Shown: positions 15,217 to 17,574 of the stretch, piece by piece
Position numbering within the stretch: the first letter of the stretch is position 1
Layout: each line of letters starts with the position of its first letter
Source: Bacteroidia bacterium
Lineage (GTDB): Bacteria > Bacteroidota > Bacteroidia > B-17B0 > Aurantibacillaceae
DNA length: 38,929 bases
Reading direction: 5' to 3'
Assembly (NCBI GenBank): GCA_025451115.1
Contig: JANWKZ010000071.1
Span: 1-38,929, forward strand
Notes under the pieces: generated by a model
Told to the model about the DNA's origin: nothing
Databases searched by the model: none
The model's input: the letters and a program-made list of their open reading frames with translations, nothing else
Program-made: the position numbers and the translations under genes

Positions 15217-15924
15217 TCATTCAAGCCTGAAAGAAATCCCGGCTTGCAGGCAGGATGTAAATACGCGCCATTTTTCTTCCTTATTGCTCTTTACATTGAA
15301 AAAGTGAAGATCAGGGCCAATATTAAATCCAAATACACCGTAGCCTACCGACACAAAATTTCTCCATAACACGCCATACCCATCTACGGGAGCTGACTGG
15401 CGTCCGCCAAAACTCATCCCTGCACCAACCAGCGAAACAAAGGTGAATATTTTATTGGGCCTGTATTGACCACAAACGGCAGGGCCCAGTGTAAACAAGA
15501 GCGGGCCAACAGGACTTGGATTGCCGCTAAAGCCACGGATATCACAATCTACCCCTATTCCTATCGTGTATTTATCTTCGGTTTTGAATTGTTTTCCGAG
15601 TGTAAAAGAAAAAAATCCCATGTCGATGGCTGTATGGCCTGCAGCATTAGTTTCAGAACCTTTGTATGATTTGCTGGTTAAAGCAACCACGGCATTTAAA
15701 AGTAATCCCGCATCAAACCACATAAAGTTATCGCCCCCTATACCTATACCGGTTAGAGTAAGTGGTGCATTTTTTGCACTCTCGGAAGGAAATGAGGGAG
15801 AAGAAGCGGTTACCTGGCTAAGTTGGTAAAAATTGTAGGCTAAGAACCGGGGCTGACCATAGACTGTAACAACCGATAAGCCGAATACCAGCAGGCAGAT
15901 AAGGGATAGTTTAATTCTGTTCAT
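15217..15924 (-). CDS. Probable outer-membrane beta-barrel protein of unknown function
   Basis: 235 residues from the ATG at 15924. This start opens a signal peptide (MNRIKLSLICLLVFGLSVV...YGQ). The frame extends to 16017, but that extension would translate the terminator at 16004-16030, so I reject it. The mature protein has Gly/aromatic-rich alternating strands (FTLGKQFKTEDKYTIGIGV, FVSLVGAGMSFGG, FVSVGYGVFGFNIG) and ends QAGISFRLE, consistent with a small outer-membrane barrel. No family recognised. Confidence 0.75.
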   Translation of the reverse strand: MNRIKLSLICLLVFGLSVVTVYGQPRFLAYNFYQLSQVTASSPSFPSESAKNAPLTLTGIGIGGDNFMWFDAGLLLNAVVALTSKSYKGSETNAAGHTAIDMGFFSFTLGKQFKTEDKYTIGIGVDCDIRGFSGNPSPVGPLLFTLGPAVCGQYRPNKIFTFVSLVGAGMSFGGRQSAPVDGYGVLWRNFVSVGYGVFGFNIGPDLHFFNVKSNKEEKWRVFTSCLQAGISFRLE

Positions 15925-16003
15925 TTTTGAAGGTTTGATAGGAATCAAAACTCCGATATTTCTTAGGGTTTCGCAATCCGTATCCTTAGGTATATTGAAA
16001 AAA

Positions 16004-16030
16004 CAAAAACCCGCCATGGGCGGGTTTTTG
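16004..16030. terminator. Bidirectional terminator after the tRNA-Arg locus
   Basis: A perfect 12-bp stem CAAAAACCCGCC/GGCGGGTTTTTG with loop ATG. It ends the minus-strand tRNA transcript. Confidence 0.85.
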
Positions 16031-16039
16031 TTTTATCCG

Positions 16040-16174
16040 TAGTCTCGACAGGCATCGAACCTGTATCAAAAGTTTAGGAAACTTCTATTCTATCCCCGCC
16101 CGTACCGAACGTGAAAGAAATTTTTTCTGGCATTTAAACTCGGTACGTTCGGGCGGGCATTGAACTACGAGATC
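16040..16174 (-). pseudogene. Second tRNA-Arg(CCU) copy, interrupted by a 63-bp palindrome
   Basis: It aligns base for base with the intact tRNA-Arg beside it (72 nt) except for three things. A 63-bp insert lies in the D-loop (16095-16157). One change lies in the T-loop (TTCGATT becomes TTCGATG). One change in the acceptor stem (G2 to A) creates an A-C mismatch. The anticodon loop TTCCTAA and the T-stem are intact. It is probably non-functional, but the insert would fold as a closed hairpin extending the D-loop, so a processed RNA cannot be excluded. Confidence 0.85.
16095..16157. repeat. 63-bp palindromic element inserted in a tRNA D-loop
   Basis: The ends are a perfect inverted pair, CCCGCCCG (16095-16102) and CGGGCGGG (16150-16157). 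A second helix can form inside (TACCGA with TCGGTA) after a 4-nt bulge, and an alternative pairing exists (ACGTTCGG with CCGAACGT). Removing exactly these bases restores the tRNA sequence, and no target duplication remains. It resembles palindromic mini-elements such as those of Rickettsia, but I do not recognise this family. Confidence 0.75.
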
Positions 16175-16185
16175 GATTATAGTAG

Positions 16186-16257
16186 TAGTCTCGACAGGAA
16201 TCGAACCTGTATCAAAAGTTTAGGAAACTTCTATTCTATCCATTGAACTACGAGACC
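16186..16257 (-). tRNA. tRNA-Arg (anticodon CCU)
   Basis: 72 nt folding as a full cloverleaf: acceptor GGTCTCG/CGAGACT (one G-U) with discriminator A, D-arm GTTC...GAAT, anticodon stem GAAGT/ACTTT with loop TTCCTAA, and T-arm ACAGG-TTCGATT-CCTGT. Anticodon CCT reads AGG codons. No CCA is encoded. The first 38 nt are also the end of the GIY-YIG gene. A damaged duplicate follows after 11 bp. Confidence 0.95.
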
Positions 16258-16489
16258 AACTTATCTTTAAAAATCTTCTACCCGCGGCAGATTTAAAATA
16301 CTTTTCACGTTTTATCGCTTCATCCCGCGCCGCAAAAGATTCTGAATAGACAATTTTGAAAGGAGCTTTATTTTTTATGGATTGAGTGTGTCCGGCATTA
16401 TGCTGCTTTAGCCTTTCTTCTAAATTTTCACAATGCCCTTTATAAAGGCTGCCATCTTTCAAACTGCAAAGAACGTAAGCGTAAAACAT
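16220..16489 (-). CDS. GIY-YIG nuclease-family protein overlapping tRNA-Arg
   Basis: 89 residues. It has the small single-domain GIY-YIG fold: MFYAYVLCSLKDGSLYKGHC (the GIY- and YIG-equivalent strands), then LEERLKQHNAG with the conserved Arg, and a C-terminal EAIKREKYFKSAAGRRFLK. Such stand-alone proteins resemble UvrC/homing endonuclease cores; their cellular role is unclear. The last dozen codons are read through the 5' half of tRNA-Arg, and the TAA stop uses the last anticodon base and the next two bases of the anticodon loop. The protein core is complete before the overlap, so the tail SRSSMDRIEVS is probably an accidental extension. Confidence 0.85.
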   Translation of the reverse strand: MFYAYVLCSLKDGSLYKGHCENLEERLKQHNAGHTQSIKNKAPFKIVYSESFAARDEAIKREKYFKSAAGRRFLKISWSRSSMDRIEVS

Positions 16490-16524: not shown

Positions 16525-17574
16525 TTAAAGTATCAACATCGCGTCTCCGTAAGAGTAGAAACGGTATTTCTCTTTCACCGCTTCCTTGTACGCTTTCATG
16601 ATAAGATCATATCCGCCAAATGCGCAGGTCATCATCAATAAAGTTGATTCAGGCATGTGGAAGTTTGTGACCATGCAATTGGCAATACTGAAATCGTAGG
16701 GAGGGAAAATGAATTTGTTGGTCCAGCCGGTATACGGATTTAAGTGGCCCGATACAGAAACCGAAGTTTCTACTGCGCGCATCACGGTTGTTCCAACCGC
16801 GCAAACGCGTCTCTTGCGGTCGATAGCTTTATTAACTACATCCACAGTTTTTTGCGGAATAGTTACTTCCTCAGAATCCATTTTATGCTTGGTAAGATCT
16901 TCAACCTCTACCATGCGGAAAGTTCCTAAGCCCACATGCAAAGTAACGTAGCTGAAGTTAATGCCTTTGATCTCTAAACGTTTCATCAGCTCGCGGCTAA
17001 AGTGCAGACCGGCCGTAGGCGCGGCAACAGCTCCTTCGTTCTTCGCGAAAATAGTTTGGTAGCGGTCTTTATCCGTTTCTTCCACTTTACGCTTAATGTA
17101 TTTTGGCAGCGGTGTTTCGCCCAGCTCATACAATGTCCTGCGAAAATCTTCGTACGGACCATCATACAGGAAGCGAAGTGTACGTCCGCGTGATGTGGTG
17201 TTGTCTATTACCTCTGCAACCAAAGAATCGTTCTCGCCGAAATACAATTTGTTACCAATACGGATCTTACGCGCAGGATCAACAAGCACGTCCCACAAAC
17301 GACTTTCCTGGTTCAGCTCGCGCAGCAGGAATACTTCGATCTTGGCTCCGGTCTTTTCTTTGTTGCCATACATACGCGCCGGAAAAACCTTTGTGTCGTT
17401 CATGATCATCATATCACCATCGTCAAAATAGTTTATGATGTCTTTGAATTTCTTGTGCTGGAATTTGCCGGTTTTGCGGTCAATGACCATCAGCTTACTT
17501 TCATCACGATTCTTGGCGGGGTACTCTGCCAGGCAATCTTTAGGCAGGTTAAACTTAAATGCGGTTAATTTCAT
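16525..17574 (-). CDS. queA: tRNA preQ1 ribosyltransferase-isomerase
   Basis: 349 residues, full length. QueA uses the ribosyl part of S-adenosylmethionine to convert preQ1 in tRNA to epoxyqueuosine. Signatures: [21 protein letters not shown] at the start, [14 protein letters not shown], the central [10 protein letters not shown], the [19 protein letters not shown] block, and the ending [18 protein letters not shown]. It lies upstream of the GIY-YIG/tRNA locus with 35 bp between; QueA acts on GUN-anticodon tRNAs, not the neighbouring tRNA-Arg, so the proximity is probably coincidental. Confidence 0.98.

Follow-up and report, generated by a model that had tools for sequence, protein, structure and literature searches.

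The window analyzed here, a stretch of 38,929 nucleotides from a Bacteroidia bacterium, carries on its minus strand two copies of a tRNA-Arg(CCU) gene in tandem, separated by approximately 10 nt. One copy is intact (16185..16257) and is found by both ARAGORN and the Rfam tRNA model. The other (16039..16174), delimited by repeat comparison, is interrupted between G18 and G19 by a 63-bp palindromic insertion element (16095..16157, minus strand) with CCCGCCCGAACGTACCG...CGTTCGGTACGGGCGGG ends. Downstream of the tandem tRNAs an inverted repeat, AACAAAAACCCGCCCATGGCGGGTTTTTGTTTT, forms a terminator-like hairpin (15997..16037, minus strand), and the upstream flank is occupied by queA (16525..17574, minus strand). 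Directly upstream of the intact tRNA lies a small open reading frame (ORF; 16220..16489, minus strand) of ~89 amino acids, starting MFYAYVLCSLKDGSLYKG, which matches the GIY-YIG nuclease family PF01541 (53 bits, E = 9 × 10−14) and the UPF0213 structures 1ywl and 1zg2 (E = 2 × 10−7), and is accordingly described as a UPF0213-type GIY-YIG nuclease. The last 12 codons of this ORF lie in or at the tRNA gene, and its TAA stop codon is located in the anticodon loop of the intact tRNA-Arg(CCU). The ORF at 16220-16489 is omitted from the 100-amino-acid ORF listing, and was overlooked in the first-pass annotation.

The interrupted tRNA-Arg(CCU) copy

The tandem arrangement, with one copy split by a 63-bp insert and marked by two substitutions, had been described in the first-pass annotation, and is confirmed by two direct repeats in a repeat search of the window, one of 57 nt (16039-16095 and 16185-16241, 98%) and one of 15 nt (16158-16172 and 16241-16255, 100%). 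One substitution, G2>A in the acceptor stem, creates an A-C mismatch; the other is U60>G in the T-loop. Once the 63-nt insert is excised, the D-loop is regained as AATG followed immediately by GATA, and target duplication is absent apart from a C/G sliding ambiguity of 1 nt, so that the description of the insert as exactly excisable holds as well. An empty site is found in a congener (G001, locus L041), where tRNA-Arg(CCU) comes immediately after the end of queA, without the GIY-YIG ORF and without the insert. In other loci, 5' or 3' halves of tRNA-Arg(CCU) occur that are split near the anticodon and contain no visible palindrome (L045 ~1900, L047 ~2390, L049 ~4715 and L043 ~2060); these are probably attachment-site remnants of integrated elements.

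The insert has a folding energy of −24.3 kcal/mol (z = −3.4), which was equaled by 1 of 200 shuffled sequences, supporting the hairpin fold that had been attributed to it. It is not a simple perfect palindrome, as the outer 8 nt of its arms match but the inner blocks are swapped in order (AACG-TACCG versus TACCG-AACG), resulting in a hairpin with a 4-nt bulge. It had further been suggested that this hairpin extends the D-loop while the tRNA fold survives. If so, the interrupted copy could still function as a tRNA, with a longer D arm, or the hairpin could serve in the processing or regulation of this copy. The minimum free energy structure of the interrupted RNA does retain the acceptor, anticodon and T arms, with the D arm lengthened by the insert, the copy is of full length both in the window and in L075, and its position between the intact tRNA and the terminator indicates that it is probably transcribed. 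Nevertheless, survival of the tRNA is doubtful, because the insert places 63 nt between G18 and G19, the residues that pair with the T-loop, the G2>A change disrupts an acceptor pair, and sister insertions are mostly found in truncated tRNA fragments that are incapable of function. Moreover, ARAGORN does not call the interrupted copy and detects the adjoining intact tRNA-Arg(CCU) as the sole copy, while the Rfam tRNA model scores the intact copy at 67 bits and gives the interrupted one a partial match of 20.5, under the cut-off of 29, such that neither tool recognizes a tRNA fold in it. Other Rfam matches at ~15900-16114 were weak and sub-threshold, lay mostly over the terminator hairpin, and were rejected. 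A functional role of the interrupted copy is very unlikely on these grounds, and it is probably a pseudogene.

A dispersed family of palindromes

The exact 63-mer occurs once in the window's own genome (G000), a draft of 2.75 Mb that is 74% complete and divided over 235 contigs; a 17-mer match in contig C144 is a chance occurrence inside a coding gene. The first-pass annotation had proposed searching this genome and its relatives for the insert, and had counted its occurrence nowhere else among the grounds for abandoning the idea of a mobile element. The exact copy proved unique, but elements of the form CCCGCCCG-AACG...CGGGCGGG are dispersed across Bacteroidota. Their consensus is CCCGCCCG-AACG-block...CGTT-block'-CGGGCGGG, with a length of ~29-64 bp. 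Many members share the signature of the window insert, in which one arm reads CCCGCCCG-AACG-B and the other, read inward, CCCGCCCG-B-AACG, which yields the 4-nt bulge. Classification of 44 distinct elements, some of which are chance matches, gave 2 straight palindromes, 24 swapped or bulged ones, and 18 that were unclassable, the latter being in part chance matches or compound elements.

The position of the insert within the tRNA is also found elsewhere. A search of 85,000 species genomes for a tRNA-Arg 5' end followed by a gap and CGGGCGGGGATAGAA identified five contigs that carry a CCCGCCCG...CGGGCGGG insert at the identical D-loop position, with a different inner sequence. Four of these belong to Bacteroidota and one is binned as Nomurabacteria. 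The Nomurabacteria-binned contig (L076, CAIQAW010000026.1) has the identical tRNA-Arg/palindrome/GIY-YIG arrangement, and is either a misbinned contig or a case of horizontal transfer. Among 395 genomes of the class, 26 contain the simple end pattern, with up to 16 occurrences per genome and some of the 26 being chance matches in GC-rich genomes; a reversed-pattern control is rare. Three genomes (G068, G274 and G448) contain 8-16 copies each, demonstrating that the family is a multi-copy, dispersed palindromic repeat, and many of these copies are intergenic and away from tRNAs. Exact matches to both 17-nt arms of the window element are present in G081, G392 and G448. In G081, which is of the same family as the window genome, the identical-arm element sits in the anticodon loop of a tRNA-Arg fragment, and in G392 it sits in the D-loop of a tRNA-Arg fragment; a version with one mismatch in the arms is present in a tRNA-Ala fragment of G448.

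Palindromes with other ends were also encountered. G392 and G036 contain many CCTGCCTGCC-N20-GGCAGGCAGG palindromes of 39-42 bp, one of which lies in a D-loop copy of tRNA-Phe (L271), and these are possibly a related second family. Palindromes with CCTGCCTG/CAGGCAGG ends are embedded in tRNA sequence in L167, L168, L214, L216, L222 and L271, and represent in part the same phenomenon as the CCCGCCCG...CGGGCGGG family, with which they are incompletely merged because they occur in many other contexts too. Viral contigs with CCCGCCCG...CGGGCGGG matches proved to be chance hits in GC-rich phages. More specific family patterns had zero matches in viral contigs, and a search of plasmids for the family patterns gave ordinary tRNA matches only.

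Insertion sites in tRNA and protein genes

The fetched loci contain 66 distinct family palindromes, 24 of which lie in tRNA sequence (Arg, Leu, Ala, Glu, Met and Phe); in nearly all of these cases the host is a duplicate or fragment that has been displaced from a neighboring intact tRNA. The positions are G18^G19 (6), A21^G22 or its equivalent (7), C56^57 (4), the anticodon (2), 26^27 (2), 9^10 (1) and other places in the D-loop (2). None of the 24 is clearly in a stem and two are borderline, the rest being in loops or at junctions. With 39% of junctions located in stems, the chance of finding none there is 6 × 10−6, and that of finding two or fewer is 8 × 10−4, both values ignoring relatedness among the elements. 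The element lies mostly in the D-arm of cassettes with a displaced 5' half and in the T-loop of those with a displaced 3' half. Many insertion sites read TA^G or TTC^R, indicating that a sequence preference is an alternative to structure as the determinant of the site.

Family members are found in protein genes as well, if more rarely than in tRNAs, so that both of the settings in which the first-pass annotation had proposed to look for further copies are represented. Elements of 36 bp occur in open frames of PyrF (L250), HtpG (L104), AlaRS (L251) and a multihaem/TPR protein (L245/L278). The clearest of these is L245, a clean in-frame insertion of 12 codons with a clean empty site, as precisely these codons are absent from 12 of the 12 congeners found. 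The inserted residues of PyrF and HtpG are unaligned against solved relatives, and in AlaRS the ORF is open through the element, the alignment to solved AlaRS not isolating the insertion. Frame-keeping insertion is therefore a property of the family seen in members other than the window copy.

These occurrences bear on whether the insert is an assembly artefact, or a chance hairpin in a decaying pseudogene. The window does come from an incomplete, fragmented draft, and the exact insert is unique, but the same architecture and identical terminal arms recur in independent genomes, including on large contigs (G217 and G448), and an insertion of exactly 12 codons in a protein gene is difficult to reconcile with such an origin. 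An artefact, which could hold for the window copy alone, is contradicted by the independent occurrences and is barely credible.

The likeness to Rickettsia palindromic elements that had been put forward stands as a likeness of behavior, the family consisting of small dispersed palindromes that enter RNA genes cleanly and protein genes in frame. Rickettsia palindromic elements are longer (~100-150 bp) and of different sequence, and we know of no association of these elements with a GIY-YIG ORF or a displaced tRNA. They are likewise described as small, dispersed, palindromic, selfish and tolerated in frame in proteins (Ogata et al. 2000, 2002, as cited in PMC6649704); they belong to a different phylum, and the likeness is drawn by behavior and not by a sequence-family comparison. 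Mitochondrial double-hairpin or repetitive hairpin elements resemble the family in being potentially mobile hairpins in rRNA genes and intergenic DNA, but are organellar, have other sequences and, in the portion of the source available, have no linked nuclease gene (PMC2800124).

GIY-YIG ORFs and the putative mobilization of the palindromes

GIY-YIG homologs are present in 140 of 395 genomes of the class. Among 88 GIY-YIG ORFs in 81 loci, 58 have a tRNA gene no more than 150 nt away, in every case on the same strand, as compared to 0.4% of background positions, and these neighbors comprise many tRNA species. The window's own genome has seven small GIY-YIG ORFs, five of which are tRNA-adjacent (Arg, His, Met, Leu and Lys). 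Some loci of the survey are tandem arrays whose units each combine a GIY-YIG ORF with the same tRNA half. In L253 (G192:C9:904500-912000), an intact tRNA-Met is followed by ten such units of 457 bp, which carry 27 nt from the 3' end of tRNA-Met; L254 (G295:C1:2897500-2902000) has four tandem 322-bp units of a GIY-YIG ORF with ~31 nt of tRNA-Pro; and L191 has three units, with the palindrome or a degenerate form of it ahead of each GIY-YIG ORF. The case for a putative homing of GIY-YIG genes at tRNAs is circumstantial, being drawn from the empty site in the congener and from these tandem arrays.

An adjacent GIY-YIG ORF is the strongest correlate of tRNA-embedded palindromes. Within 600 nt of GIY-YIG ORFs, 115 kb contain 18 family palindromes, versus 1 in the 787 kb farther out in the same loci, a density that is ~120-fold greater beside the ORFs. 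Similarly, a palindrome is present at 15 of 81 tRNAs with a GIY-YIG ORF within 500 nt and at 0 of 37 without (p = 0.003). At the level of genomes, 15 of 17 with true palindromes, picked by eye for self-complementarity, are GIY-YIG-positive, against 35% overall (p = 7 × 10−6). The two exceptions do have PF01541 genes, and in one of them (G440) a decayed gene lies at the palindrome. PF01541 is generally common, so only the local association of palindrome and GIY-YIG ORF is strong.

Dispersed palindromes of this size are reminiscent of REPs, which measure 20-40 bp and also enter genes (PMC3733652), and the family could in principle be moved by a RAYT of the IS200/IS605 type, its proximity to GIY-YIG ORFs arising only from both collecting at tRNA loci. 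Y1_Tnp was indeed detected in 35 of 43 genomes tested, but it is equally common in genomes that were not chosen for a palindrome, and there is no match either in G448, which is 100% complete and has at least 16 palindromes, or in the 74% complete G000. No GTAG/CGTC tag was seen by eye in elements and flanks, and tRNAs without a GIY-YIG ORF lacked the palindrome throughout. The family differs from the REP/REPtron system in its independence of Y1_Tnp and in having a GIY-YIG ORF as its neighbor instead, and mobilization by a RAYT is distinctly unlikely given the many palindromes of G448 and its lack of Y1_Tnp.

The association could also mean that the GIY-YIG element makes use of the palindrome as one of its components, which would then not be an independent hitch-hiker, for example by breaking the repeat between tRNA copies as a protection against loss by recombination or against recutting. 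Such a role would fit its location at conserved tRNA-arm motifs of the displaced copy, the intact tRNA being free of it. This is rather unlikely, as most GIY-YIG/tRNA loci have no palindrome, the arrays of G192 and G295 contain tRNA repeats without one, and some palindromes are located at a great distance from the GIY-YIG ORFs.

A precedent for a nuclease of this family acting at tRNA genes is SegB of phages T4 and T6, a GIY-YIG homing endonuclease whose gene lies beside tRNA genes and which cuts within them; in T6 it drives tandem amplification of the tRNA together with segB, and its motif is RAWTSGAAC, according to the accessible sections of the source (PMC13096335). By our own reading, this motif corresponds in reverse complement to the T-arm sequence GTTCSAWTY, and it is in this T-arm motif that the T-loop palindrome insertions fall. 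SegB is a phage gene whereas the window protein is chromosomal, single-domain and UPF0213-type, and those sections describe no palindromic element alongside SegB (PMC13096335). Searches of the open-licence literature found no published description of these palindromes or of UPF0213 genes at bacterial tRNAs; those that combined bacterial GIY-YIG proteins with tRNA or palindromes, or used the letters of the element, returned nothing relevant but SegB.

Taken together with its genomic context, the 63-bp insert is quite likely a mobile hairpin resembling Rickettsia palindromic elements, a member of the dispersed Bacteroidota family that resides in a surplus tRNA derived from a GIY-YIG/tRNA cassette. 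The family has the appearance of a mobile element that is as yet without a name and for which tRNA genes serve as landing pads. Such a palindrome would enter tolerant sites cleanly and without target duplication, as Rickettsia palindromic elements do, and in the window this site would be the D-loop of the surplus tRNA-Arg(CCU) copy. The surplus copy would stem from a cassette, seated at tRNA genes, that joins a small GIY-YIG nuclease gene to tRNA sequence. After insertion of such a cassette, an intact tRNA would be accompanied by a displaced one, either full or partial, and the palindrome would reside in the displaced one. The GIY-YIG nuclease may cut conserved tRNA-arm motifs and thereby create or target insertion sites, with the resulting breaks receiving the palindrome, and it is likely that the nuclease creates the palindrome landing site in this manner. 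A more elaborate proposal, which is possible but held tentatively, is that of a two-part system, in which chromosomal UPF0213-type GIY-YIG cassettes would home into many different Bacteroidota tRNA genes, regenerating the split tRNA, and palindromes would arrive, by delivery or capture, where the nuclease cuts the D-arm and T-arm of the displaced copy, occasionally escaping in frame into protein genes.

To our knowledge, coding palindromes are known mainly from Rickettsia, and we know of no established mover for them. A second, unrelated lineage of coding palindromes that is strongly tied, by physical proximity, to one nuclease family and to displaced tRNA copies would make their mobilization directly testable. 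The findings further suggest that many of the small UPF0213 GIY-YIG genes beside tRNAs are selfish, tRNA-targeting units, a reading that accounts for the tRNA pseudogenes and for the odd ORFs running into tRNAs in these genomes.
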